This document shows, one piece after another, positions 2,341-62,115 of a DNA stretch of 64,000 nucleotides. The DNA lies in NCBI RefSeq assembly GCF_964355755.1, contig NC_092673.1:29703001-29767000 (forward strand). The letters run 5' to 3'. Under the pieces are notes generated by a model. The model had not been told where the DNA came from and searched no databases. It worked only from the letters and a program-made list of their open reading frames with translations. The DNA is from Antedon mediterranea (lineage: Eukaryota; Echinodermata; Crinoidea; Comatulida; Antedonidae). Position numbers and translations under genes: made by a program. Within the stretch, counting starts at the first letter, position 1. Each line of letters starts with the position of its first letter.

Positions 2341-2600
2341 ATTGTTATATTGAGTAATGTTATCTATGGGTGCATTACCTGTACTTACCTCAACATTATC
2401 TACTTCTACATTGTCTTTTATATCAAATGTTGTATTGAGTAATGATGTTGTTTTTGTAGTCTACTTACTTCAACATTATCCACTCTAACTTCAGCATTGT
2501 CCTTTTATATCAAATGTTTTATTGAGTAATGATGTTGTTTTTGTTGTCTACTTACTTCAACATTATCCACTCTAACTTCAGCATTGTCCTTTTCTGCTTT
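2341..2600 (-). repeat. Tandem copies of a CCT7 exon 3' end plus 5' splice site
   Basis: The end of the CCT7 exon at 2556-2720 and its GTAAGT donor recur in the downstream intron. The motif 'CTTACTTCAACATTATCC' (plus strand) occurs at 2551 and 2464, with a diverged form at 2394. Spacing is about 87 and 70 bp. Each copy keeps a GTAAG donor, so three potential 5' splice sites lie in series. Confidence 0.85.
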
Positions 2601-4851
2601 CAGTTCCAATTCTATATTGAGTAACGCTATCTTTGGTTTCAAGTACTTCTTTTGCTGCATCTCAAATCCTGCGTACGAGAATGTCTTTTTAAACGCTACA
2701 CCTGCCACCAATCTGGAATCCTAGCAAGAAAAATGACAACAATGGTAAAGGTAGGTCCCGTGATCATTGTCTGAACGTAGGAAAGTCTCGTATTCATTGT
2801 CTGAACGTAAGGAATTCCCGTATTCATTGTCTGAACATAGGGAGTCCCATATTCATTGTCTGAACGTAGGGAAGTCCCGTATTCATTGTCTGAACGTAGG
2901 GGAATCAGCGGCTAGGAGCTCACTTTACCAAGATTGTACATTATGTGGTAGGGTGGCCAGTTCCTTTCCACGCCGTAGTAACGACTCGGCTACCCAGCTC
3001 CTATTTATTTCAGTGCTTTGAATTCAATATGTGATGTGCCCATATATGGACATGATGATGTCATATCACTACCAAATTTGGGCACATCACTCCTTTTTTT
3101 TTTTTGTTCGTGTTGTTTGACAGTGTAGACAGAGATTTAGATTATAATTTACCTCAAGAGCTCCTCCTTTGACCTTCTTGATGCCAATCATGTCAAGAGG
3201 TAAAAGGTCATCAAGCATCAAAACGGCATCTACTACCATCTTAGAGAAGAACTCCTTTTGGCCAGATACTAATTTAGAACTGAGAGTTGTGGACGCACAC
3301 TTTGTCAAAAGGTCTCTAAGCTCCCTGTAAGAAGAAAACAATAACATCATTAGTGGGAAAGTGGGGTTGAGTTTTAAACTGCAATCACACTGCTCTTTGA
3401 AATATGACAAAAGCCACACAGGAGGGAGATAATACCACTATCCCACACATGGACTTTCTTGGCCAGTTTTTCCCAGCTCATGTGTAAGGCCGTCAAAAGC
3501 AACAAATATCCACCACCACAGTTTGATTGTCTTTAGTTCCCATGTTCAATCTTTTTAATCATACAACTAGTTGAGTTGCAAAATTAGAGATTAACTTACT
3601 GATTATCCTCTTTGTTAATCTTGACTGCAATCTCTTTAATCCTATCTACAGATAGTTGAGTTGCAAAATTAGAGATTAACTTACCGATTATCCTCTTTGT
3701 TAATCTTGACTGCAATCTCTTTAATCCTATCTATAGCTAGTTGTGTTGCTTTCCTATAAGATCTCACAATGACCTGAGGATGGACATTATCTTCTACGTA
3801 CACCTTAACCTGGTTTAGCAGCTCGGCCGCCAACATGGTCACTGTCGTCGTACCATCTCCTACCTTTTTAAAAACAATATATGTGAAATATATAGTGGAA
3901 ACTAGTAATTGTGGTTATTCTTTTAACACTGGTATTATCTTTCAAATAAAAATACATTAGACACTTCTATTCAAGGGACACGCATATTTCAGGGGACTGG
4001 GACACGTTTAAAAAAAAACGAAGGGCAACACATGTCCAACCGCTATTTAGGAGAAACTTTTATTAATTTGCGGGGTTCATACTTTGCTTGTTAATAGTGT
4101 ATAATTCACAGTTTTTAAAATATCGCACATACCTGTACCTTTCTTGCGCTGTATGCATGAGGATATTGTTTTATAATTAGTAAGTATAGTACACACGAAA
4201 ATTTAAATATGAGCTTACCTCCGCATCTTGTGACTTGGCAATATCAACAAGAGTCTTTGCTGCAGGGTGTACAATATCAAGTAGCTTCACGATTGTTGCA
4301 CCATCATTTGAAATTGTTACATTTCCTAGGGAAAAAATAGAAGAAATGTTACTTACCATCAAGCAGACACATGCATGATGGTTTTCGCAATGCAACGTCA
4401 AAAAGTTCATTATAAATATCTTACCTCCACCCTGTGCGATGAGCTTATCCATCCCCCTTGGGCCTAGGGTAGTACACACCACATCATATTATTATATTAC
4501 ATTTAATATCTTAACTCCACCCTGTGCGATGAGCTTATCCATCCCCCTTGGGCCTAGGGTAGTACGCACCACATCATATTATTATATTACATTTAATATC
4601 TTACCTCCACCCTGTGCGATGAGCTTATCCATCCCCCTTGGGCCTAGAGTAGTACACACCACATCATATTATTATATTACATGTGTTAATATCTTACCTC
4701 CACCCTGTGCGATGAGCTTATCCATCCCCCTTGGGCCTAGGGTAGTACGCACTGCATCTGCTACCACTTGACATGCTGTGATGTTACTAACAACTTGAGA
4801 TTTTCCTTGAGACGCCTCAGTCCCTTCTTTCAACAGAATTATTTGTGGTTG
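2556..4851 (-). CDS. CCT7: CCT7, T-complex protein 1 subunit eta (partial, five internal exons)
   Basis: Subunit of the cytosolic TRiC/CCT chaperonin, which folds actin, tubulin and WD-repeat proteins using ATP. Exons on the minus strand: 4698-4851, 4219-4325, 3685-3863, 3153-3324, 2556-2720. All have GT-AG borders and consistent phases (1, 2, 2, 0, 0 at the exon ends). Together they encode about 259 residues in family order: [12 protein letters not shown] near the N terminus, the nucleotide-binding [10 protein letters not shown] and NDGATI motifs, the GDGTT ATPase motif, MLDDLL, and [16 protein letters not shown] of the apical domain. The first coding residue here is Gln in phase 0, so the start codon lies in a short upstream exon I could not place. 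The C-terminal half must lie left of the window. Three of the five exons have tandem copies of their 3' ends in the following intron. Confidence 0.95.
2763..2901. repeat. Minisatellite, about 33 bp x 5
   Basis: The motif 'CATTGTCTGAACGTAGG' recurs five times at about 30-34 bp spacing with small changes. It lies in the CCT7 intron just upstream, in gene sense, of the exon at 2556-2720. It is not derived from the neighbouring exon. Confidence 0.8.
3027..3135. mobile_element. MITE of the CTCTGTCTACACTATCAAACT family
   Basis: Short copy with the 'TGCCCATATATGGACATG' core and a degenerate right terminal repeat ending AGTGTAGACAGAG. It ends 18 bp from the donor of the CCT7 exon at 3153-3324. The left terminal repeat is missing or diverged. 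Confidence 0.65.
3586..3755 (-). repeat. Two-copy tandem duplication of a CCT7 exon end and donor
   Basis: The segment from 'AGAGATTAAC' at 3671 through the end of the exon at 3685-3863 is repeated at 3586, an 85 bp period. The intronic copy encodes the same stretch ending KINKEDN and keeps a GTAAGT donor with one changed base beside it. A transcript using the distal donor would add the intervening 85 nt and shift frame. Confidence 0.85.
4411..4770 (-). repeat. Four-copy array of a CCT7 exon 3' end and donor, about 90 bp units
   Basis: The end of the exon at 4698-4851, encoding [17 protein letters not shown], and its GTAAG donor recur with donors at 4697, about 4607, 4517 and 4427. The copy near 4511-4520 reads TTAAG in place of GTAAG, so its donor is dead; the other three are intact. 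The unit also carries about 30 bp of intron. The copy fused to the rest of the exon (4698-4851) is the ancestral one. Confidence 0.9.
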
Positions 4852-15469: not shown

Positions 15470-16344
15470 TCTAGCCTGTCTGTCTGTCTAGCCTTTCTGG
15501 CCTGTCTGTCTAGCCTGTATGGGCTGTCTGTCTGGCCTGTATGGGCTGTCTGTCTGGCCTGTCTGTCTAGCCTGTCTAGTCTGTCTGTCTAGCCTGTCTG
15601 TTTGTCTGTCTCTCTAGCCTGTCTGTCTGTCAAGCCTGTCTGTCTGTCTGTCTAGCCTGCTTGTCTGTCTAGTCTGTCTGTCTGTCTAGCCTGACTTTCT
15701 AGTCTGTCTGTCTAGGCTGTCTGGCCTGTCTCTCTAGCCTGTCTGTCTAGGCTGTCTGGCCTGTCTGTCTGTCTAGCCTGTCTGTGTGTCTAGCCTGTCT
15801 AGTCTGTCTAGCCTGTCTGTCTAGCTTGTCTGTTTTGCCTCTATAGCCTGTCTGTCTAGCCTCTCTAGCCTGTCTGTTTGGCCTGTCTGGCCTCTCTGTC
15901 TAGCCTGTCTGGCCTGTCTGTCTAGTCTGTCTGGGCTGTCTGTCTGTCTGGCTTGTCTGTCTGTCTAGCCTGTCTGTCTATCTAGTCTGTCTGTCTAGCC
16001 TGTATGTCTGTCTAGCCTGTCTAGCCTGTCTGTCTAGTCTTCCTGACCTTTCTCTCTAGCCTGTCTGTCTAGCCTGTCTGTCTAGCCTGTCTGTCTAGCC
16101 TGTCTGTCTAGCCTGTCTGTCTAACCTATCTGTCTAAATCTGTCTGTCTAGCATGTCTGACTTGACTGTTTGTCTAGCCTGTCTGTCTAGCCTGTCTGTC
16201 TAGCCTATCTGTCTAGCCTGTCTATCTAGCCTGTCTAGCCTGTCTGTCTAGCCTCTATAGCCTGTCTGTCTAGCCTCTCTAGCCTGTCTGTCTAGTCTTT
16301 CTGGCTTGTGTGTTTAGCCTTTCTGGCCTGTCTCTCAAGCCTAG
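15470..16344. repeat. CTGTCTGTCTAGCC satellite, left array
   Basis: About 0.87 kb of irregular (CTGT)n interrupted by CTAGCC or CTAGTC. On the plus strand it is pyrimidine-rich, whereas the array on the other side of the LTR element (19676-20756) is purine-rich. The two arrays are therefore in opposite orientation. Confidence 0.95.
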
Positions 16345-19675: not shown

Positions 19676-20756
19676 CTAGACAGACAGACAGTCTAGACAG
19701 TTCAGACAGACAGACAGTCTAGACAGACAGACAGTCTAGACAGTTCAGACAGACAGACAGACAGTCTGGACAGTTCAGACAGACAGACAGTCTAGACAGA
19801 CAGTCAGTCTAGACAGTTCAGACAGACAGACAGTCTAGACACACAGACAGTCTAGACAGTTCAGACAGATAGACAGTCTAGACAGACAGACAGTCTAGAC
19901 AGTTCAGACACAGACAGACAGTCAGTCTAGAAAGACAGACATTCTAGACAGTTCAGACAGACAGACAGTCTAGACAGTTCAGACAGAGAGACAGTCTAGA
20001 CAGAAAGCCAGTTCAGACAGACAGACAGTCTAGACAGACAGACAGACAGTCTAGACAGTTCAGACAGACAGACAGTCTAGACAGACAGACAGCCTAGAAA
20101 GTTCAGACAGACAGACAGACAGTCTAGACAGTTCAGACAGACAGGCAGTCTAGACAGACAGACAGACAGTCTAGACAGTTCAGACAGACAAACAGTCTAG
20201 ACAGACAGACAGTCTAGACAGTTCAGACAGACAGACAGACAGTCTAGAAAGACACAGTCTAGACAGTCAGACAGTTCAGACAGACAGACAGTTCAGACAG
20301 ACAGACATACAGTCTAGACAGACAGACAGTCTAGACAGTTCAGACAGACAGACAGTCTAGACAGACAAAAAGCATAGACAGTTCAGAGAGACAGACAGTC
20401 TAGACAGACAGGCAGTCTAGACAGTTCAGACAGACAGACAGTCTAGACAGACAGACAGACAGTCTAGACAGTTCAGACAGACAGTCTAGACAGATAGACA
20501 GTCAGTCTAGACAGATAGACAGTTCAGACAGACAGACAGTCTAGACAGACAGACAGACAGTCTAGACAGTTCAGACAGACAGACAGTCTAGACAGACAGT
20601 CTAGACAGTTCAGACAGACAGACAGTCTAGACAGACAGACAGTCTAGATAGACATACAGTCTAGACAGTTCAGACAGACAGACATTCTAGACAGTCTAGA
20701 CAGTTCAGACAGACAGTCAGTCTAGACAGACAGACAGTCTAGACATTCAGTTTCAG
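19676..20756. repeat. GACAGACAGTCTAGACAGTTC satellite, right array
   Basis: About 1.1 kb of tandem units made of GACAGACA, GTCTAGAC and AGTTCAGACAGACA blocks. It runs from the LTR element to the 3' end of the LINE at 20757. A 36 bp remnant of the same repeat is at 30156-30191, beyond the LINE's 5' end, so the LINE inserted into this array. Confidence 0.95.
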
Positions 20757-39049: not shown

Positions 39050-42000
39050 CAGGTATATAAAATATACCAAATTGGCTAGTTGAGAATTCTCAACTATTAC
39101 CGCAGTACGCCTGTAACGACGAAGCCTACCGGTATAATGGGATAGGCTGATTTCCTTGTTAACTTAAGGGGTCATTTAATTACTGAATTATGATTGGTAG
39201 TAAAGGAAATTTACTGGAATCCTATTGGATGGAGGTGGTAGTAGGACCATGTCCATCCCATTGCAGTAATAAAGTTGAGCCACCTGCGACCATTACAATG
39301 TCCTACCATGCTAATGTAGGAGTGGGGAAATGTTATGCTTACTACTGTTTCTTTTAATAATTTAGTACAATTAATAAGAATAAAGAATACACTTAACAAT
39401 ATACAACAAATAACATTAATGTACGATGTAGTTTAACACTGTTCTCAAATAAAGTCATTTTGGTATACTTGAGCACATTGATAAAGAATAGGATAAACTT
39501 AACAATATACAACAAATAACATTAATGTACGATCCCGTTTAACACTGTTCTCAACTATAGTCATTTTGGTATACTTGAGCACAGTGATAAAGAATAGGAT
39601 AAACTTAACAATATACAACAACAATGTACGATCCCGTTTAACACTGTTCTCAACTATAGTCATTTTGGTATACTTGAGCACAGTGATAGAATAGGATAAA
39701 CTTAACAATATACAACAAAAAACATTAATGTACGATCCAGTTTAACAATGTTCTCAACTATAGTCATTTTGGTATACTTGAGAACAGTTATAAAGAATAG
39801 GATAAACTTAACAATATACAACAAAAAACATTAATGTACGATCCCGTTTAACACTGTTCTCAACTATAGTCATTTTGGTATACTGAGCACAGTGATAATA
39901 TGAAAAACATAATAACACTATAATATTTGTAGATGAATGACGCGGACACGTACATATGTTCATAAGTAATTGATATAAATTGACTTTTATAAGTGGAATT
40001 AACACAAATGATTGTAGATAAATATGACGTGAATTGCACGTACATAATGTTGATGAGTAGTATATTTATATAAATCGACTTTGAAAAGTGAAATAACACT
40101 AATATTTGTAGATGAATATGACTTGGACACGATTTACATATGTTGATGAGTATATTGATATAAATCGACTTTTAAAAGTGAAATAACACTAATATTTGTA
40201 GATGAATATGACGTGGACACGTACATTTATTGATGAGTATATTGATATAAATCGACTTTTAAAAGTGAAATAACACTAATATTTGTAGATGAATATGACG
40301 TGGACACGTACTGTACATAATGTTGATGAGTATATTGATATAAATCGACTTTTAAAAGTGAAATAACACTATTGATTGTAGATGAATATGACGTGGACAA
40401 GTACATTTATTGATGAGTATATTGATATAAATCGACTTTTAAAAGTGAAATAACACTATTAGTTGTACACTATTGATCATATATGAATATGACGTGAATT
40501 GCACGTACATTATGTTGATGAGTAGGCCTATATTGATATAATTGACTTCGAAAAGTGAAATAACACTGATTTGTAAATGAATATGACGTGGACAAGTACA
40601 TTTATTGATGAGTATATTGATAAATCGACTTTTAAATGTGAAATAACACTAATATTTATAGATGAATGCACACGTACATACGTTGATAGGTATTGATATA
40701 AATAGATTTTTAAAAGTACGGTAATAGACACTTTATTTGTAGATGAATACGACATGGACAAGTTGCAATAAATTCTATCGTTATATCGTATGTTGATGAG
40801 TATTGATATAAATCGACTTTTTTAAAGTGGAATAACACTAAAATGTATAGATGGATATGGCCTCAACAAGTATTGTATTAAGCGGTACTGTATATTGATA
40901 GACTTCATACCTGTAATGTCAATGAAATCTGGCAACAAGAATTGTGTTTGATCCTCCTAATAGTATTCTAATAATCTTGGTTTGTAAAGGAGGCATGAAA
41001 AATCTAAACGCATAGCCAGGGGAGGGGTTGGAGTTTTGAACAAACTTCCCTGTGCCCGTCCTACGGTTTTTGTGAACTTTTTAGTAGCGTGCAAACGCGA
41101 GTCTACAGCTCACTATGTCGATCGGTCGGTCGGTAAACACCAACTCAAATTTGAGCACGCGACTGCAGCCATGTATAGGCCTATGGCCTGTTTATACTAG
41201 AAATCAGCAGTGAAAGTAATGTAAATAATATGTGTTAATATAGAATTAGTTTTTTAATTTTTTAATTTAATAAATAGTATTAAAGTTGATCTTATTCTTT
41301 ATCTGTGATTAATTATACTCAAATGACTATAGTTTAAAACAGTATTAAACGGCATCTTACATTAATGTTATTTGCTGTTTATTCGAAGTTTATCTTATTC
41401 TTTATCACTGTGCTCAAATATACCAAAATGACTATAGTTGAAACAGTGTTAAACTGGATCGTACATTAATGTTATTTGTTGTATATTATTAAGTTTATCC
41501 TATTCTTTATCACTGTGCTCAAGTATACCAAAATGACTATAGTTGAGAACAGTGTTAAACTACATCGTACATTAATGTTATTTGTTGTATATTGTTAAGT
41601 TTATCCTATTCTTTATCACTGTGCTCAAGTATACCAAAATGACTATAGTTGAGAACAGTGTTAAACGGGATCATACATTAATGTTATTTGTTGTATAATG
41701 TTAAGTTTATCCTATTCTTTATCACTGTTCTCAAGTATACCAAAATGTCTATAGTTGAGAACAGTGTTAAACTGGATCGTACATTAATGTTTTTTGTTGT
41801 ATATTTTTAAGTTTATCCTATTCTTTATCACTGTGCTCAAGTATACCAAAATGACTATAGTTGAGAACAGTGTTAAACTGGATCGTACATTAATGTTTTT
41901 TGTTGTATATTTTTAAGTTTATCCTATTCTTTATCACTGTGCTCAAGTATACCAAAATGACTATAGTTGAGAACAGTTTTAAACGGGATCGTACATTAAT

Positions 42001-42374
42001 TTTATCCTTTGCTTTACTGTGCTTTGATTTGATAAGCAAGTTTGGTTGCCCCGCCCCCATATGCTGCCTACTAAATTAGGATTCCCTAGCTTTTCTATAA
42101 AAATTGAAGTACCCACAATGCACGTTATACGGAAGTCATAGTCTTGTAAAATACAGACACAATAGTTTTTATCGTATTGCTTTCATTTAAATATCACTAA
42201 GATTGTCTTAAACTACAAACAACTAAAATTAGTGAAGGTATGCAAGTGTTTCTAAATATTTATTACTGGTAGTATTAATACAATTTGGATTATATCATTT
42301 TCCAGAAAGGTAGAAAAAAACATAAAATAGTTGAGAATTCTCAACTAGCCAGGATGGTATAGGAAATATAGCTC
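39050..42374. mobile_element. 3.3 kb TIR element carrying inverted minisatellite arrays
   Basis: Inside the flank GCGACAG (39043-39049 and 42375-42381), the ends are imperfect inverted repeats containing the palindromic core GGCTAGTTGAGAATTCTCAA. The interior is mostly tandem repeats. A left array (39400-39895) has about five units of 99-107 bp. A middle array (39900-40860) has units near 87 bp. A right array (about 41300-42000) holds inverted copies of the left unit. No transposase was seen. It split the CDC23 tail repeat array. Confidence 0.7.
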
Positions 42375-42860
42375 GCGACAGACGGTTGCCAAGTGGTGTT
42401 TGCTGCCACCATTCAGGGTGTAAACATGAGATTCATAGGTGACAGACGGTTGCCAAGTGGTGTTTGCTGCCACCATTCAGGGTGTAAACATGAGATTCAT
42501 AGGTGACAGACGGTTGCCAAGTGGTGTTTGCTGCCACCATTCAGAGTGTAAACATGAGATTCATAGGTGACAGACGGTTGCCAAGTGGTGTTTGCTGCCA
42601 CCATTCAGGGTGTAAACATGAGATTCATAGGTGACAGACGGTTGCCAAGTGGTGTTTGCTGCTACCATTCAGGGTGTAAACATGAGATTCATAGGTGACA
42701 GACGGTTGCCAAGTGGTGTTTGTTGCCACAATTCAGGGTGTAAACATGAGATTCATAGGTGACAGACGGTTGCCAAGTGGTGTTTGCTGCTACTATTCAG
42801 GGTGTAAACATGAGATTCATAGGTGACAGACGGTTGCCAAGTGGTGTTTGTTTGTCCTGT
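42375..42860 (-). repeat. 64-bp array of the CDC23 C-terminal coding tail and stop
   Basis: GACGGTTGCCAAG occurs at 42381, 42445, 42509, 42573, 42637, 42701, 42765 and 42829, exactly every 64 bp. The unit at the right is the end of the CDC23 coding sequence ([12 protein letters not shown], stop); the others lie in the 3' UTR. Two further part-copies at 38971-39049 show that the array was larger before the 3.3 kb insertion. Confidence 0.95.
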
Positions 42861-45800
42861 AAAGCAGCGTTCTGTCCTTGCACTATTGACCCATTTAGAT
42901 TATCGCCACCCGTTGCACCTTTCCTTTGAGCTTCAATCTCTCGTAAGATCTCTTTGCCTTCTTCCCTAACCTAAAATATCAAAACATTTATGTTCAATAA
43001 AAAGATCTGTCTCTCAAGTTATCTTTGCCTTTCTCCCTAACCCATAGGTGAATGCAAAAGCACCATACTACAACTAAAAAGAAGAGCATTTTTACCTCGT
43101 TATATTCACTGCATTTTTGAGCATATATTGATGCTTGGTCATATAGTTGTCGTTTTAGATAATATCGTCCAAGAAACATATAAGCCTGGCATTGCTCATC
43201 ACTCCCTGCAGTCTAAAAAAAAAGATAAGTAATGTTTAAATCTGGTGTTTTCACCTATAAATTGACAAAATAAATGGTTAAATTCAACCAAAAACCCACT
43301 AACTGGCAGCCAATTTGGCAATTTTTTTCTTTAAATTACAGTTTTTTCAGGTAAATACATTTTTTTTCGATCCACTTTGTGGTCAAAGTGGATAACTTTT
43401 ATATTACATTAAAATGGCATATTCAACTAAAAATTTTGTTAAGAATTATTTTTTCAGGGGACATACATATCTTTAACAATGTATTCTAAGTTTATACCCC
43501 AAAGGATTCAGCTTGTTCCAAGAATTTATTATAGAAATAAGCGGCCTTTTCTTCATCTTCTAGCTTCTGTTTTAATAACCTAAACAAAAGAGAGAAAAAA
43601 CAAACAAAAAACTAGTAGCTAATTATTATAATTTAAAACTTTGTTGGTACCAAACCCGTAAAACAGCACACTGGTTAATTTGTAAAGGTGGAGCCAGGGG
43701 TATAAAGTCATAGTATCTTTATTAAAAAGGATAAACAGAAATTTGTTTTGAAAAACTGGCATATCATCATAAATATATAAATATAACAGGTTAATAAAAA
43801 ATCACCATCCCCTCCTCAGTATGTCATCATTAATGAAAGAGCTTAAGTGTAAATATTGAAGCACATTAAGCACTTTGTGGTAATGTGCGCTTTCTAAATA
43901 TTATCTTATTCAGCTGCAGAAAGACTAGACAACATAGTAACTTACTTAGCCAGTCTAAGAACTGCAGTGCCCTCAACGTCACCAACAGAATAGGCTTTCC
44001 AGTAGCACTTTTTGGCCTCTTCTATCTTCTCTAGGTTTTCATAACTCTCTGCTAATGCTACTAACATCCGAGAATCATTGGGCCTACACAGAGAGTTATG
44101 TAACTTAAATAACCATCAATTTGTCATGAATTATGAGATAAATTAGCTAATTATTTGTCATGCAGTTGCTTTTTTGTTGTTTTTGTTTAGGGGTTGATAT
44201 TTGACAAGTTCTTTTACTTCTTTTTCTGATCCCAGAAACAGTTCTTATTTAATGTTACCATTTAAGTTATTGTAATTAATGTATGCTGCTTTTATTTCTT
44301 GAACCGTTTCTAAGTAAATGTTGTTGTTGAAATTATATAAGTAGCATTAATCTAAACACTAACTTTATGTCACTGGCTACCAGATGTGTCTATGTAGACG
44401 GTTACTTGAACCAGTACCCATAATGATGTAATTAAAATATATATATATATATTGTGTTCATATTTACAAGTTTACAAGATCAAGTGGACAGTAGCAAGGG
44501 TACATTCACTACCATCACAACTAATCTTCAAGACAAATCTTTTTAGAAGAACCTGATCAGAAGTTCCGTTTTTGTCAAACTCACCTGAGCTGTTGAGCTT
44601 GCTTATAGTAATATGTACAGTAGAATGGCATTCGTAAAATCTCATATGTTTGACCCAGACCATACCATGCTCGGAAATCTCTTGGATTTACCTCTACAAG
44701 AAAACAAATGGAATGATTACATACATACTTGGTTGATTCATCGTGTTTGTAATTACAAACTTGCGATGGTTTCTATAGGCAAAAAAAAAAACACAAAAAA
44801 AACTTTGCAAATAACTGAATTGTTTTAATTGCCATGACAAAATGTATAATACTTTTATTAGGTCAAAAGTACCATACACATTTTTTTCAGACTTAAAGCG
44901 TGTTTTCTACTAGGTGAATTTATTCATGTGAATACAATGTTTTTCCAGATTTAAAAAATAGTGTGCTACTCTTTCCACTAAAGCTCTGTCTACACTATCA
45001 ACTTTTATGTAACAAAAAAATGTGATGTGGCCATATATGAACATGATGAAGTCATATTACTACCATATTTGAGCATGTTACTAGTTTGATAGTGTAGACA
45101 GAGCTTAAGAATGTGATTAATGTTAGATTATCAATGAGTAAGTGCAAATAAAAATATAAAACAACCTATAGCTTGTCTGTAAGCCTGTATTGCAGCAGAC
45201 GAGTTCTTCATCTCCATGAACTCGTGGCCCATCAGTGTCCAGGCTGACAAGTAATGTGGGTTGAGCTTCAACGCACGCTGGAAGTATAACACTGCTTTCT
45301 CATGCTGGGATCGTAATGAATAGTAGTTACCTAGCAAGGCATAAATTGAAAATACATGAATTGTACATATTATATGGGATCCAAGCTTCAACGCACGCTC
45401 GAAGTATAACACTGCTTTCTCATGCTGGGATCGTAATGAATAGTAGTTACCTAGCAACGCATAAATTGAAAATACATAAATTGTACATATTATATTGGAT
45501 CCAAGCTTCAACGCACGCTGGAAGTATAACACTGCTTTCTCATGCTGGGATCGTAATGAATAGTAGTTACCTAGCAAGTCATAAATTGAAAATATGTAAA
45601 TTGTACATATTATATTGGATCCAAGCTTCAACGCACGCTGGAAGTATAACACTGCTTTCTCATGCTGGGATCGTAATGAATAGTAGTTACCTAGCAAGTC
45701 ATAAATTGAAAATATGTAAATTGTACATATTATATTGGATCCAAGCTTCAACGCACGCTGGAAGTATAACACTGCTTTCTCATGCTGGGATCGTAATGAA

Positions 45801-48800
45801 TAGTAGTTACCTAGCAAGTCATAAATTGAAAATATGTAAATTGTACATATTATATTGGATCCAAGCTTCAACGCACGCTGGAAGTATAACACTGCTTTCT
45901 CATGCTGGGATCGTAATGAATAGTAGTTACCTAGCAAGGCATAAATCGAAAATATATAATCCTACCCTTAATATAGGCTAAATTCACTAAATTTCACCAT
46001 AAGTTCAGTTATATACGATATATCAATTCAATAAGTATATACAGACAGTATATAAATATTGAGTAAAATAAAAAGACAGCTAAAACGACTGACAAAAATA
46101 ATACTCAATAAAACCTTAAAATATGTTGTAAATATGAGTAGTTGAAATAGGAAATATTTATATAAAATGCATATTAAAAATAGCAAATGGTAAAACATGA
46201 AAACTATTAGATCTTGTAAAATGTTAGATAAAACATTTAAAATTGTATAAAGGTTACATAATACACAATATCAATTATTCACAGAAATTTAACACTGGTA
46301 AGACCATTCCCAATAGTGATTCTCAATCAATAAGAAGTGGAGACATTAAAAATGCAACTTCATTTTACACTTCATAAGAAAAGAGCAAAATATTTATACC
46401 AATAACACAGCATGTTTCCACCCTGTATTTATCCACTTCACAAACATGGTGTGCCAAGTACGCAAGCTCTGCTTTCATTTCCTAGCAAAACAAAATATAG
46501 TTTATTATCAAATCTGTAAACCTTGCTGTTGAGTGGACAGTATTATATAAAATGGCATGCAATAGTATGCACTATTAAAAGTTCGTTTAATAGTACCCTT
46601 TTTCGTGTACGAAAACAAAAATCTGTTCGCATTTGGAAAATATAACACGGTAGGTGTATTTATAAAATCCATATACACAATATTTCATATAATTATTAAA
46701 AACCAAATGTTACTGTTTTAATCAATGTGAATCAAATGTAGGCTTTGGCTATGCCTACCTTTTATTTGATTCAAATGACAGGAATCTATTTAGATGTTAT
46801 ATAAAACAAATAATGAATGTTTTATATTCGTGTAATGGTACAAATAATGGCATCTGTCGCCTCGTTGATATATAACCAGTCAGCCTTTCATCTTTCATCA
46901 TTCACCTCATGCCATTATTTGTACCACTACACTCATAAATATTCATTATTATATATCAAACCACTTACTTTGCCTAACAATCCAGATTTTACACACATCG
47001 GGGCATCAATGCCATAAAAAACACAGGTGTTGACGCCCTGGTGTTTGTAAACTCCAGAGTTTGCTAGGTAACATGAAAGTGCTATAGGTCTTAAGTAAAA
47101 CTTATATGACTAAAGCAGCTTATTGGTCTGACACAAAACTCAATACATCTTTTACACCAAGATTACATTGATATCTGGTTAGTATAATAACTTACCCGCA
47201 CATACAATAAGTTAGAATAAGTGTCCATGTTCTCCAAGCGATAAGGGTCTATCTTTTGAAGGTTATCAAACAATTTCAATGCACTCTCAAAATCTAGAAA
47301 ATTAAATCGTAAGACAAATAAATAATTTATAAAATATTTCTTTATTCAAAAAACTTTAAAAATATATATATTATTTTTTCTTGTTCAATAACATAATTTG
47401 ATAATGATCAAATAAACAAAAAACAGAACATAGTATTCTTAATAGCATTATAATTTAGCATAAATATAATTAATAGTTAATGGCTGCCAGCCAGTGGGTA
47501 ACATGATGTCCGGGCCTATTACTGGGCTCTAGTGTTATGTCTGGGCCTATTCCTGGTGCTATGATTACCTCTTAAGTTATGGTGGGCTACCGCAATTTGT
47601 GACATAATATAAGTGCTCTGTCCGAATCCAGCTTCGCTAAGTGCTCTGTAACGCTTCAATGATTCCTCGTTTAACTGAAGTTCTAAGTAGATATGCGACA
47701 AAAAAAGCTGCTTCATCCAGTGATCAGGTAATGTTAATGAATTTAACTAGAAAATACAAAACCAACATTGATATCAGAGATACAAATATATGCCAAAGCC
47801 AGGGGTTCTTTGGTTTTCATAAAATTTGGCAAAAATTGTAACCCAGGGTTGATACGGTGGGATTATTTTCTTCAAAAGGGGAAAAATCATCTAGGCTACT
47901 TAAAACATATTTAGCATAATTTACACTGTTGTTCTTTAGTTTGAAAGGGCACTTCTGGAAATAAGGATCGGCTGAAACCCTTCATCCCTATATGCCGTAT
48001 TAAAGGGCGTTACGCCCTTTAATATTTGGATCATTAGGTGATCATAACCATTTCGAAAACAAGTTGTACGTTTTTGAAAATGTATACAAATTTGTCATTG
48101 TCATGGTGAATTAGTGAACATATATGACATAGTGTTATTAAAGTTCCAAATGGCTGGGTAAAAGGGTCTTTCACACCCGGCTACGCACATATCGATTGGC
48201 GCATAGCCGCGTGAAAACGAAACATTGATGTTCAATTCGCTGGACGGGAACCATGCCAGAACAGGTGTGAAAGACCCTAAAACGTTGAAAATCTTGGTCC
48301 TTGTTTATTTATGTAACCTTACCACTTCTTTACTTGATACCATGGAAGATAATTCAATCCAAGCGCCCCAGTATAGTGGATTTCTTTGTATAGATTCTGC
48401 TAATACTCTCATTGATTCTTTCTTCAGTTCTAACTTCTTTAAAACAACTCCATACCTTTGGTAAGAACGAGCAAAAATGTAATTTTATTGACTTTTAAAC
48501 AAGAAGATATAGATCATGGCACAAAAACACAGTGACAGATCGTGATTTGGAAAGTTTATAGGTAGGGTAGATGTAAGTCTGCAATTGAGTGTTATTGATT
48601 TTAAAATAAAAGAGGAAATATGGTGGAGTATGTGAAAAGGGTATGTGTAATGGATTGGTCCATTTTATTTGAAGGGGTGTTCCTTTATTTTCTAGGTACC
48701 AAGAAGCAATCAACTAGTATTATTACTTACAAGTATAAACAAAAGCTATCCAATTGTCCTGCATTGTATTTTTTGCAGAGCTCAATTCTGAGTGATTTTA

Positions 48801-51800
48801 AAGTTTCATTTTTAGTAGCTTTATACTCAATTGGACCCATTTGTCCAGCTAACTCATCATATCTTTGTTTTTCTCCTGCCTGAAATATAAATAATAATAC
48901 AGTAATATCTAACCGGGTACCCATTTATACACCTGGGTGGAGGGAGGCAAACGTAAGTATCTTGCCTAAGGATACAAGCAATGCGACAGAGTTGGGTTCG
49001 AACCTCGATCTCACGATCAGTAGTCCAACGTCCAACACACTGTGCCACCCACCCTTACATAATAAATATAATAAATTATCAAATAAAAATAATAATTTAA
49101 TTGATTTAAAATTATATAATAGCTCATTATATAATAGCTCATTATATAATAGCTCTTTATTTATTAACAATGTAGTGGCAGCAAAAGCTGAATTGTTACA
49201 TTCTGGTATACAGAAAAAAAGTTATCTGAAAGCTGGATTAGAATCTTTCCAGTAGTATAGGCAAATTGACATAATACAAGTGCCACTTGTGATAATGCAA
49301 CACTTAGTATTTGCCTATGACATAAGTAATGCCATATATGGAGATACAGTACAGAAATATTAATATTATAAAACTTAGTTAAAAACAACTATTGCTGTCG
49401 TTTAAATTCATTTATATAGAGTTTGTATATTAGAAGATTATTATGTAATATTTTTTATGGATAAAGTCTGAAATAGAGAAATGATCAAATAAAAAAACAT
49501 AGTTTGACTTACTAAATATTTGGCATATGCATAAATGAAATATGCTTTATGACTTGTGCAATCTTTAACAAAGAAAGCTGCCCGGTCATACTCCTTAACA
49601 TCGAGGTATGATTTACCCAAAGTGTATTTATCAAATTCCAACAAAAAATCCTAAAAGAAAATAAGGTTTAGCAGTTACATAAACATCATTATAGAGCATT
49701 TGACATATTAGTTTGTATTATGAACAAACAAAAATGATCTGGCTTTAGATTTAAATATTTGTTATTCATAGAATGTGCCTACCTCTGTGTCATCATTTGG
49801 TTTTGGTGCAGCTGATGGTTTTACTCCAGCTAAAGAATGGCACAACTCAGCACACCTACAAAAAATTGATCATATCATACATTTATTTACAGACCTCCCA
49901 CCAACTCCCCCAATGATGGTGGTGGTCTCCCGATATTTTGAGTCATCTCCAGGGGTGCAGCCAGCAAAGAATTAAAGGGGGGGTCAACCAATATGTGAGT
50001 ATTTTGCGAGCGAAGCGAGCAACCATGGGCTGGGGGCCAGGGGGCCGCCAAGGGCCCCCGGTTCCAGGGCCCCCTGGAAGCTTTGGCGGTCTAGGGCAAT
50101 CTAGATCATTTGAATTGGTTTACGCACACACAAATATGACAATGTTAACACTAATAAACTGAAACAAAGAAAACAAAAAACAACTCTCATTTTCACTATA
50201 GAACATTTTTATATTCCAGGCTGCCACAGACAAACACTTTTCTTCTTGCTTGTTTGTTGATTTGTGTAGAGAGGCTGTAAACTCAGAGGAGGAATTATTT
50301 GAATTCCTCCCTTTTCACCAATACAAAAGTTGCATGAAATGAACGTAGAGATGCAAAAGTTTGAAAAAAGAAACTAGAATGATAGCATGGAGTGATATTA
50401 TTAAATGAGAACCGTAAGGTTAGAGTTCATACACTGTGCAAGTCCAAGAAGCTATCTTGGCTCCGTGTGTATGTGAGACGCTTATCATACCCAGTACATA
50501 CAATATTTTGTTTAAAAATATACCTATTTTGTTCGAATGTATAGTATAGGTGATAGCTTATACATAATTGTAATAACTAACTTCTAAATTGTTATCATAC
50601 ATTTTACGTTAGTTACTATAACGGCGCTCTAGACATCGCGTGATGCATCTTTAAACATAAGTTTGGAACATTCTTCTTGGCTTGGAGACAGAATTCGCGA
50701 ATGACATTCTCTGTATTAATGTTCATGTTAAAGTGTATGTTCATGAGGCACAATCCCGAAAGCTGCTCATAAGACATGTGATTTCGCAAACAGGTTTTCG
50801 TTCTCCATAAAGTCGAAAAACTTCGCTCAGCTTCAGCAGACGTTACGGGCATAGGCCTACGCGATTAGAAGAAGTGCACGCACATTCGGGAACACATCTG
50901 GATCCGCTAATTTTACACAGTCGCTTCCATCACTGAAGCTCGGAATGAAGATGTTCGTGTCTTGGCAGATCATCGTACCAAATTCAAGTTCCTTGAAGAC
51001 TTCTTCAACATTACACTTCACGATAGACTCGGGTGCTACGCCAAATATTTTAAAGCATGGCCTGTTATCGGCAGAAAAACGGGTGTTTAACTCGGTTTGT
51101 AAATGATCAAGAAGTTGATTTGGTAATACTGCTCGGTGGTAATCTTCCACAGTATCTCCAGGATGATTTGATCTGTATTGTTGTCTCATGTTTTTATTTA
51201 TTTTTTCTAAAAAAGGGGAGGTGGGGGTCAAGACCCCGTGACACCCCCCCCCCCCCCACTGGCTGCGCCCCTGATCTCCCATATAAAAATGGGATAGGCA
51301 TAAACCAAAAAATATCCAGATATATATAAATTTTACACTCCATGATAGAAGATGGTGAAGTTTGTCAACAATAAATATTAAAGGATTTATTTGTTACCAG
51401 CAATTATACCAGCCCCAGGGCGGGTTTCAAAATTAGTTTAAAGCCTTCTCAACACCCGACGCCAGTATCTGTCTATACTCACCAATCTCCACCCTTCTTC
51501 AATACCACCCCATACTCTTTTTTAAAAACAAATTCTTCCCAGTGATGGACAAATTCAATTCAACGTAAGCTTCAAATTGAGAGGAGTATACATAGCTATG
51601 ATGGGTCTAATAATGGTTGAAGTACGTTGTAAATTGTGTAAATGAATAGGTGTCATATTGGCTGATAATTAAAATATCTAATTTAGATACTGCGGGCCCC
51701 CAGCCTTCTTTCTCCTCTCACCACCCCAGCCACAATCAACAAACCTTAACTCCTCCCCTAGACAGTTCAAATATAGTAACTTTTCCTAGTACAATTCCAA

Positions 51801-57611: not shown

Positions 57612-57756
57612 GGCCGGGGATATACGCTGCCAGGTGCGGATGCATGCATGACGACTGTGCAGATGTGCAATTCCACAGGTCCTGACAGACACGATCAGAG
57701 CAGCCATATCTTTTACTGTATGTACGTAGTGTACTGATTTTGAAGTCTTCCGAAAA

Positions 57757-59444
57757 ATGGTATATCCTGTTTTAGAGGAATTAAAAGAACAAGCGCTAAC
57801 GTGTCAATTGTGTTTTGAGATTCCCGACGGAGGTCGAGGTGAATCAAATGTTTTTAAACAGCTAAGTTGTTCTCACACATTCTGTAAATTGTGTATTGAG
57901 AAGTTGATAGATTCTAATGGCGGTAAATATAAATTCCTCTCAACCCTTATTAATTGCCCTAATTGCAGGGCTCTTACCCATATAAAAGAGGGGAATGTAG
58001 ACGCACTTCCGTCGGCATTTCAATTTAATAATGTGATAGAATGGATAAATAAGAAACAAGAAAAAACAAATCGAGTTTGTCGCGAGCACGGAGTACAATT
58101 GAATTTCTTCTGTCTAAATTGCCTTCAATTCGTTTGTGGTGATGATTTGAGATTAACAGAAAATCACGAGGAACACACAACTTTGTATGTGAAAACCGAA
58201 GCAGAACCAATACGTAAGGCAGCTCATGATATGATGGAAGAAATTGGATGTCAACTGGGCCACTGGAAGAAAGCTCATGAAGAAGTCGAAGCAATGATAT
58301 CTATTATTGACGATGATACCTCAAAATCAATTCAACTATTAGAAAAGTATACGGAAGAAATAAAAAGGAGTTTGATTTCAGCACAAGATCGTCTAAAGGA
58401 AACAATAATGAACACACAGAAGAAAAAGATTCAACTACTAGAAAAAGATAAAGATGCAATCATGACGAAAATTCAGGAAGTCGAGAAGAAGATTTCGGAA
58501 CACAAAGTATCAATGAAAAATGCTGACAGTTTTGAAACATTTATTGAATATGTTGCGATCACTGAAATTCATGAATTTTGTGCAGACGAACACGCAGGTG
58601 GCCAAACAAACAAAGCAAGATTCCCTGGACCTTTCTCCAAATTTCATCTCACTCAAACGTTTGAAGAAAGATATTGCTCATTTTGGAGAAGTTAAGTGCA
58701 CAAGAAATCTGAAAGCAAGTACAGTATAGTATACACAATAATATTTAATAAATCTAACAGCAGGCCTACAATCCCGGAGAGGTTCCATGGTTCTGGTGGT
58801 AGAACAAGTTCTTCTCGGATAAGGACTATAAACCGTAGGTCCAGTGTATGCATATTGCTCGTGTGCACTTTAAAGAACCTATAACCTGTACATCTTTCGA
58901 GACGAGTAGGGGGTTACCCCCGGTGTAATAGTACACACACACACCCACACACACACTGTCGTGGACAGACGTAATGGCACCGTAGTTGGCTGCCGATGAC
59001 ACGATGTGACCCTTAGGGGAGAAGAATGTTGTTGAAAAGGTGTAACATCTCAAGTCCACAGCGTTCTGATCTTCATGAAATAGCGCTATATAAATGTCGC
59101 ATTATATAAGTTCAATTCCTTGCTATTGTCTCTTCGGCTTAACAGTAATATTGATATTCTGTAGCTAAAACTATGAACCTGGATTATTAGTATTATGTTG
59201 TTATACAGTGGAGAAAATAAATTTGAATACATAATTAGAAATTCATAAAAATTGGAAAAAGAACTTTTCATTGAATGTATAAATATCTTCTTTTTTTTCA
59301 GAATCCTATACTAAAAAGATGTACAAAGAAGACAAATATGCGGGAGAAGTAGACTCATATGATGGTTACAACAACTGTAAAGGTTATAATAGGAAAAGCC
59401 TTCGTAAGATATGCACAGTACTTACAAAGAAGAACATGCTTTAA
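57757..59444 (+). pseudogene. RING/B-box/coiled-coil (TRIM-like) gene with a frame break
   Basis: Probable E3 ubiquitin ligase. Exon 1 from ATG at 57757 gives an N-terminal RING (C16, C19, C38, H40, C43, C46, C67, C70), a B-box2 (VCREHG...FFCLNC...VCGD...NHEEH) at about residues 105-145, and a long coiled coil. Relative to the paralogue at 59833, a 2-nt deletion near 58570 throws the frame off, and a 5-nt insertion near 58690 restores it. In the unrepaired frame a stop falls at 58693. The homologue of the paralogue's GTAAGT donor is GCAAGT at 58715. A second exon at 59302-59444 follows TTTTTTTTCAG and stays open in the restored phase to a stop, encoding a short Tyr/Lys-rich tail (SYTKKMYKEDKYAGEVDS). 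It may still make a truncated RING protein of 312 residues. Confidence 0.8.
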
Positions 59445-59574: not shown

Positions 59575-59832
59575 TTTATTAAAAAACAATTTAGTGCATG
59601 TCCGTGTTTTCCTGCGGCAAAGGCCCCCGGTGTTTTGTTCTGACTGAACGATACGATAAGCTACGTGATAATGCTGTTGTTGATCACGCCCTCTATTATA
59701 GTTTGTATTAATGGGGAATCCCCTTTTAGATGGGGAATTCCATTTGTACACCCGACGCCATTTAGAGTATTAACCGTTCAGTCCTAGGCCTAAATTAGCG
59801 TTAGCCGCTCGCGGGCTGTGTCTTTCAACAAA

Positions 59833-62115
59833 ATGGCTTATGCCGTGTTAGATGAATTGAAAGAACAAGCACTAACATGTGAATTGTGTTTTGAGGTTCC
59901 TGGAGGAGCACAAGGTGATACCAATGTTTTCAAACAGCTAAGTTGTTCTCACATATTTTGTAAATTATGTATTCAGAAGTTAGCAGACACGCAAGCAGAT
60001 CCTTCAGGTATTTGTCGACATATACGTATTTCTTGCCCTAATTGCAGGGTTTTTACCTCTATACATGAGGGTGATGCAGAAACACTTTCATCCGCATTTA
60101 AAGTTACAAATGTAATCGATTGGGTAAATACGAAGCAAGAAAAGGAGGAGAAAGAAAAGAAAGATCGGGTGTGCAATGAGCACGGAGTACCATACAATTT
60201 CTTCTGTCTGGATTGCTCTAAATTTGTATGTGGTGATGGTTTGATATTAACACATAGTCACGAGGGACATACTCCATTGTATATTAAAATCGCAGCAGAA
60301 CCAGTACGCAAGGCAGCTCAAGATATGATGGAAGAAATTGAATTTCAACTGGGCCACTGGAAGAAAGCTCATGAAGAAGTCAGGGGAATGATATCGCGTA
60401 TTGATGATGATACATCAAAAGCAATGGAACTATTAAACAAATATACGGAAAAAATTTGTTTGAGTTTGATTTCAGCTCAAGAACGGTTAACAGAAAAAAT
60501 AATGAACACACAGAAGAATAAGATTGAAGTACTGGAAAAAGAAAAAGATGCGATCATGAGGAAAATTCAGGACATTGAGAATAAGATGTCAGAACACCAA
60601 GAAACAATAAAAAATGCAGATAAATATGAAGTGTTCAATGAACACGTTGCAATCACTAAAATGCGTCAAGAATTCCTGAGAGATCAACTTCCAGACATGA
60701 CACGGATGACCAAACAAACAGAAGATGATTCATTGAGGTTTGCACCAAATTTCATCTCTCTCAGACGCCTGAAAAATGATATTGCTCATTTTGGTAAAGT
60801 GCATAATAAATCTGAAAGTAAGTATAGATTATACATAAACTTCGATAATTTAATTCATATATATTATAAAGTAGAGCTAATACATACAGTATCAGTAAAT
60901 ACAGAAGAGTATTAAATAACTACAGTAAATTTCTTGTACTCGAAGTTCACTTTATGTTGTCCATATTTTTTTTTATTGTTAAATGGTTATTTAACTTATC
61001 AATTTTAGGTCACCTTTTTTCTATCTGTATCTAATTCTTTTAATTAACTAATTAGGCCTAATTGATTTAAAATATGTTCTTCTACCTATATCTTGACCTG
61101 TTGAGCTCCATTACAAGAAAGTATGTGCCTAAATTACTGTAGTATTATGTTTGAGCACAGCAAATTCAATAACTTTATTTAATATTGCGTTGCTATTACT
61201 AAAATGAGTCAAGAATTTCTGATAAATGATGACCCGACAAGCAGAAGAATCACTGAAGTAACTAAAAGTTTACTCCAAATTTAATCTCTCTCAAACGCTT
61301 GAAAAATGATATTTCTCATTTTGGAAAAGTACACAAACAATCTGAAGGTAAAATAAATTTACAGTACGTTTTCCCTACAGTAAATTAATACTTTATTCAA
61401 ATTAAATTAATTTTGAACTTGATTGAATGTGGAATAATAATTACTATTTATAATATAATCACTAGTGTATCATGATTGATATTGAAAATAATTGTTAATA
61501 GTATAGTGGTAAATTTTAAAGAATACTGTACATTGAATTAAACTGTGATGTTTTTTTTAAGATTCATTTTCTGTAACAATTTCACATTCTGAAGGATTAT
61601 CTCGAGAAGTGTTGAAAACCATGGAAGATGTCGTCAAGGAAGCATATGAATTAGATATATCAAATATGGACAAAGTTAAAGACAGAAGAACCAAACTGAC
61701 ATTTATTGTAAAGCATTTGGAAGATGTTCTTGAAGGAGAATGGAAATGCATTTTAGGTGATTTTGAAAGATCGCAATGGCCAGTGCAAGTTAACAAAACT
61801 GTGTCATTCTTTGTAAATGACACAGATAATGTTACTATTTATAATTTAGTGAAAGAGGTATACAGTGGCTACAAATATTATAACGTAGCAGAATGGGATA
61901 ATAATGAAATGAAAGTATGTGAAGAAGAGGAAGAAAGTGACAAAGAGGATGAAAGTGACAAAGAGGAAGAAAGTGAAAAAGAGGAAGAAATTGACAAAGA
62001 GGAAGAAAGTGAAAAAGAGGAAGAAAGTGAAAAAGAGGAAGAAAGTGACAAAGAGGAAGAACATGAAACATATGGTGAGGAAGTAGAAGTGATCAATATC
62101 CCTTGGCAATGGTAA
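59833..62115 (+). CDS. TRIM-like protein with RING, B-box, coiled coil and acidic C-terminal exon
   Basis: Probable E3 ubiquitin ligase, 512 residues. Exons 59833-60817 and 61562-62115 join in phase 1 (GTAAGT donor; TTTTTTTTAAG acceptor). The RING has C16, C19, C38, H40, C43, C46, C68, C71. A B-box2 (VCNEHG...FFCLDC...VCGD...HSHEGH) at about 115-155 and a coiled coil to about 290 follow. Exon 2 encodes no SPRY, NHL or filamin domain. Instead it has about 90 residues (DVVKEAYELDI...FIVKHLEDVL.GEWKCILGDF) that distantly recall the dynein light chain LC8 fold, then an acidic run of (D/S-K-E-E-E-S)-type hexads from an 18 bp repeat, ending NIPWQW. The start is the ATG after an in-frame GTG. AATAAA follows at 62458. 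Confidence 0.85.
61195..61346 (+). pseudogene. Decayed copy of the TRIM exon 1 end and donor
   Basis: In the intron of the TRIM gene, ATGAGTCAAGAATTTCTGAT... matches the exon 1 segment MRQEFLRDQ, and further on ...CTCTCTCAAACGCTTGAAAAATG matches SLRRLKND. It ends GAAG|GTAAAA like the real donor. Stops and frame shifts (TAA near 61283) rule out coding use. It is an old duplication of an exon end with its splice site. Confidence 0.8.
61922..62065 (+). repeat. 18-bp coding repeat in the TRIM acidic tail
   Basis: GACAAAGAGGAAGAAAGT-type units, about eight copies, encode acidic hexads. Length changes in multiples of 18 keep the frame. The long open frames on the complementary strand here are artefacts of this repeat. 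Confidence 0.9.

Follow-up and report, generated by a model that had tools for sequence, protein, structure and literature searches.

A tandemly copied acceptor and exon start in CDC23, very probably a mirage minisatellite without effect on the protein

Introduction

The closest described counterparts of the array reported here are the mirage minisatellites of amphioxus. In the globin gene BflGb6, the 3' end of an intron and the 5' part of the following exon form a repeat unit of 150-160 bp, present in six or three units according to haplotype, and RT-PCR suggests that splicing is regular (PMC3087553). The mirages of Adh3 and troponin C are likewise minisatellites that duplicate exon-intron boundaries, reportedly with no aberrant mRNA (PMC3087553, PMC3902484). 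Normal splicing is either reported or inferred for the Adh3, troponin C, globin and PGBD5 mirages. PGBD5 provides a further lesson, in that an automatic gene model translated its 108-bp copies as an extra exon without reported transcript support (PMC3902484). The term mirage was coined in cephalochordates; the taxon of the host is, nevertheless, no structural criterion.

We have analysed a window of 64,000 nucleotides (the whole stretch of DNA under study) in which the gene CDC23, encoding APC8, carries such an array. Like BflGb6, with its six units in one haplotype, CDC23 repeats an intron end, an acceptor and an exon start in tandem next to an intact exon, on its intron side, and it shares with BflGb6 the AG/GT signals in many units, the homogenised interior and the distinct edge (PMC3087553). 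The two differ in the unit, which is 120 bp in CDC23 compared with 150-160 bp in BflGb6, where the units are 81-100% identical. They differ also in host and in record: BflGb6 belongs to a cephalochordate and has haplotype variation and RT-PCR behind it, whereas the CDC23 array is the sequence of one assembly (PMC3087553). As in Adh3 and troponin C, an exon-intron boundary of a conserved gene has been duplicated, although the Adh3 unit is described as 10-72 bp long and somatically unstable (PMC3087553, PMC3902484). The 60-bp and 108-bp repeats of lancelet PGBD5 share with CDC23 units that are multiples of three and overlap splice sites; unlike the CDC23 array they are imperfect, and the error made by the automatic PGBD5 model is a trap that CDC23 also poses (PMC3902484).

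Results

A normal CDC23 protein is predicted from splicing to the authentic acceptor. Thirteen exons separated by GT-AG introns join into one 544-aa frame, with the C-terminus ...SPMNLMFTP before the stop, when the acceptor at 45330 is used (Table 1). The joined protein matches human CDC23/APC8 (5g04_C) with an E-value of 5e-207 and runs without a gap across the array join; hence no extra unit is required for a normal protein. The intron that precedes the array measures 469 nt to the first of the candidate acceptors and 1069 nt to the last. An RNA family search found no RNA family in the window.

Table 1 Features of the CDC23 and CCT7 arrays within the window (slash, splice point)
Feature	Position	Strand	Basis
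CDC23 (APC8), recovered part: 13 exons coding for 544 aa; one or more N-terminal exons not located	42797..49855	-	
CDC23 exon upstream of the array, ending ...TGTTATTG, donor GTATAA	46400..46481	-	
CDC23 tandem array, five full 120-nt units	45331..45959	-	Repeat analysis
First 29 nt of the CDC23 array, original intron tail	45959-45931	-	
Authentic 67-nt exon start, source of the copies; acceptor 45330 gives canonical CDC23	45264..45330	-	
Remainder of the array-bearing CDC23 exon, unique sequence, donor ATAG/GTTGTT	45166..45263	-	
Second CDC23 array, 64 bp x 7.4	42377..42850	-	TRF
CCT7 array, 90 bp x 3.7: exon end, donor GTAAG and intron	4415..4752	-	
CCT7 array, 85 bp x 2.1: exon end and donor	3568..3749	-	
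CCT7 array, 87 bp x 2.2: exon end and donor	2402..2593	-	

TRF describes the array as 120 bp x 5.8 at 45264-45959 (97% matches, 0 indels, score 1301), a repeat that far exceeds chance. Each full unit begins with 67-68 nt taken from the start of the CDC23 exon and goes on with 52-53 nt derived from the intron, the last part of which resembles the original intron tail and terminates in TTGCTAG, the acceptor core common to all units. The exon-derived parts of the five full units begin at 45930, 45810, 45690, 45570 and 45450. Together with the authentic edge there are six junctions of TTGCTAG and GTAACT, all in a single open frame on the minus strand, and the extra units all sit on the intron side of the intact exon edge. 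Units 1-3 are identical, while unit 4 (tail GTTGCTAG) has four differing positions and unit 5 (tail CTTGCTAG) has six. The array thus combines a homogenised interior with distinct edge units at a unit length of minisatellite size, and internal homogeneity with variation toward one edge is typical of minisatellite turnover. When the 354 Mb of the assembly (18 contigs) were searched, the unit found no match elsewhere.

An earlier note, made from the letters of this DNA, had already recognised the gene, the acceptor, the 120-nt period and the frame arithmetic, and all of these are correct. Its number for the exon, exon 9, is provisional, given that the N-terminal exon(s) were not located. Its six acceptors, those of the five full units and 45330, are exact on the minus strand; it had spoken of six copies of the unit, which holds for the acceptors, the array itself being five full units and the authentic partial one. 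Its division of the unit into 22 TPR codons and 54 bp of intron is replaced by the composition given above, and its observation that units differ at several bases applies to units 4 and 5, the other three being indistinguishable. The stretch given in the note starts at 45211, a position inside the exon, which continues to 45166. The note had also overlooked that other arrays of this class occur in the window, and that the class already has a name.

Splicing to any of the six acceptors preserves the reading frame. As the earlier note had stated, the 40-codon copies are free of stops and continuous with the exon: every unit is 120 nt long and the stop-to-stop frame spans 45961-45134, or 276 codons. 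Any given frame of CDC23 intron sequence is free of stops over 54 nt with a probability of 0.33, and a period is divisible by three with a probability of 1/3, so that about one in nine such arrays (about 0.11) would be open. In the CDC23 unit one antisense frame is open as well as the sense frame, and a 57-bp array beyond the window end (L068, below) also has a long open frame. Of the eight codons altered in units 4 and 5, seven encode a different amino acid. Variable sites are fewer in the exon-derived part (1/68) than in the intron-derived part (6/52; Fisher P=0.04), which could be a hint of constraint. No synonymous change occurs in the exon-derived part, so its low variation does not demonstrate constraint on a protein, and homogenisation or recent origin would account for it as well. 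The earlier note had attributed the preserved frame to youth or selection. Youth, or homogenisation together with chance, agrees with these observations; selection on the frame is unsupported and we reject it, given the predominance of non-synonymous changes, the open antisense frame, sibling arrays that are out of frame (below) and the chance expectation. We regard the open frame as due to chance, the period being divisible by three and the intron part happening to lack stops.

The strength of the splice sites was compared with a position weight matrix built from the 12 other CDC23 acceptors, a small matrix whose values are rough. Scores of the array acceptors lie within 6.2-11.0, with the authentic one at 8.2; since they score alike, sequence alone does not pick among the six. 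Every unit also carries TAG/GTAACT (slash, splice point), and AG/GTAACT scores 6.2 as a donor in a small matrix, compared with 5.6 for the real donor of the upstream exon. Judged from these signals, array units could be removed stepwise.

Translated through all units, the extended frame matches the TPR family in HMMER (TPR_1, E 3.6e-39), and residues 48-195 of the query align to residues 198-345 of the LGN/Pins chain, over equal lengths and with a 40-residue period. The alignment is aided by the acceptor TTG CTA G/GT (slash, splice point), which by accident reads L-L-G, a TPR-like motif. A single-sequence AlphaFold2 model of the extended frame predicts helix-strand repeats in which the intron part is a strand, at a low-confidence mean pLDDT of 52.

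The CDC23 acceptor array has siblings. The unit of the second CDC23 array takes in the end of the coding sequence with its stop codon, together with some 11 nt of 3' UTR, and in CCT7 the 3' ends of three exons have been tandemly copied, with their donors, into the downstream introns. In the CCT7 and CDC23 3'-end arrays alike the authentic copy lies at one edge and the duplicates extend into non-coding DNA. None of these four siblings is in frame and open; the 90-bp CCT7 array has stops within its intron part, and one of its copied donors has decayed to GTTAAG. A weaker case occurs in a chaperonin (CCT) gene on C7, where an array of 44 bp x 7 (C7:23671746-23672047) begins at the exon donor. The donor there reads CTAAG/GTAAGATGAACTTTGACCC (slash, splice point), and several of the 44-bp units contain the donor-like GTAAAG.

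To place these arrays in the genome, we surveyed 26 gene regions (129 kb) taken through searches for the chaperonin and proteasome families. The survey found 33 local tandem arrays, or one in every 3.9 kb. Overlap with exons by at least 15 bp was seen for four arrays against 9.1 expected under random placement (P=0.03), and the number of array bases overlapping exon matches was also below random placement (P=0.001). Three of the four overlapping arrays are those of CCT7 and the fourth has hardly any coding sequence. We reject preferential targeting of exon edges in view of this depletion, which suggests instead that arrays arise widely and that those within exons are purged, while those at exon edges can survive. 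Five coding exon-edge arrays lie in two genes of the window (2402-4752 and 42377-45959), compared with about one in 25 other sampled gene regions; we note this cluster in CCT7 and CDC23 as either a local hot spot or chance.

Other repeats were observed nearby. A single 106-bp unit makes up two oppositely oriented arrays (39387-39898 and 41283-42005) with about 1.4 kb between them, and long arrays rich in TCTG/AGAC, with units TCTAGCCTG or CTAGACAG, lie at 15470-16342 and 19676-20750, again in opposite orientation and about 3-4 kb apart. Tandem, intron-poor, TRIM-like RING/B-box genes are found at 57730-58692, at 59794-60912 and at the locus L068; some of them are followed by a conserved region and a repetitive acidic tail. 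The array of L068, a 57 bp x 22.7 repeat about 5.4 kb past the end of the window (C4, 29772359-29773655), has a plus-strand frame that stays open for 475 codons, and its units contain GTAAGATA and ACTTAC motifs.

Discussion

Taking sequence and analogy together, we consider the CDC23 array to be, with high probability, a mirage minisatellite, most probably without effect on the protein. Its unit spans an exon-intron boundary together with the splice site, an intact copy at the edge yields the normal protein, and the pattern recurs in the same genome, at the ends of three exons in CCT7 and again at the 3' end of the CDC23 gene itself. A tandem duplication would have taken in the last bases of the intron with their acceptor and 67 nt from the start of the exon, and slippage or unequal exchange would then have raised the number of copies. 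With the authentic copy still in place at the edge of the exon, the normal splice would be kept, the extra units would leave with the intron and the protein would be unchanged. Since AG/GTAACT (slash, splice point) makes each unit a possible acceptor and donor at once, splicing, should it reach an early copy, may go on to a second splice that takes out the rest in frame.

It is tempting to suppose, as the earlier note did, that choice among the six acceptors adds 0 to 5 TPR-like units of 40 residues and so creates functional APC/C isoforms. None of the six acceptors scores outside the range seen in the rest of CDC23, every choice is in frame, and the extended frame reads as TPR and aligns with the TPRs of LGN/Pins. 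The TPR match is, however, driven by the copied exon, and the low-confidence structural model renders the intron part as a strand instead of a helix. Furthermore, the altered codons carry no sign of coding constraint, the sibling arrays are out of frame, the amphioxus precedents are reported or inferred to be spliced normally, and added units would break the superhelix that the TPRs form in a core APC/C subunit. We therefore hold functional isoforms to be very improbable, and think it just as improbable that some CDC23 transcripts carry one to five extra LGN-like units of 40 residues through the duplicated acceptors. Were this so, the length of a core APC/C subunit would differ among molecules and, through minisatellite instability, among individuals. 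A milder version, in which the array is neutral for the protein and a minor share of transcripts contains extra units that are tolerated or degraded, is possible though doubtful. The acceptors are of similar strength, and the open frame would spare such transcripts nonsense-mediated decay; against it stands the regular splicing reported for the precedent (PMC3087553). This leaky splicing is compatible with a mirage minisatellite, and our confidence in the one overlaps with our confidence in the other.

Two further explanations concern the origin of the array. Duplication of an AG/GT site in tandem can give birth to an intron in the Rogers model, as has been suggested for the amphioxus mirages (PMC3087553) and for other tandem genomic duplications (PMC4974935). 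CDC23 resembles this model in having AG/GT inside the duplicated segment, and the AG/GTAACT of each unit scores as both donor and acceptor; yet the copies adjoin an existing intron and lengthen it, so that the array extends an old intron, and we judge intron birth improbable here. That the assembly has collapsed or expanded a repeat, or joined two haplotypes, might be suspected from the identity of three of the five units. This is hardly credible, given that units 4 and 5 bear their own variants, that the 720-bp array fits well inside one long read in a genome of 18 long contigs, and that comparable arrays with other periods occur across the genome.

As regards the host, amphioxus carries many GFP genes. 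Searches for the GFP family, COX1, mir-2, bantam and Chitin_bind_4 gave no match, which does not prove their absence. The genome has a GC content of about 34%, and that of B. belcheri is 41.3% (PMC12373286). Together with the lack of a GFP match, this makes a host outside Branchiostoma probable.

Our findings thus add two essential genes, one of the cell cycle and one for a chaperonin, to the places where mirage-type minisatellites, known from amphioxus, occur, and they do so in an animal that probably lies outside Branchiostoma. The CDC23 mirage is new for this gene and perhaps new outside cephalochordates. Each mirage offers a natural experiment on how, among several splice sites that are almost identical, a single one is chosen by the spliceosome. 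Where an array happens to be open, as in CDC23, gene predictors will invent protein repeats and, rarely, real ones may have their starting point.
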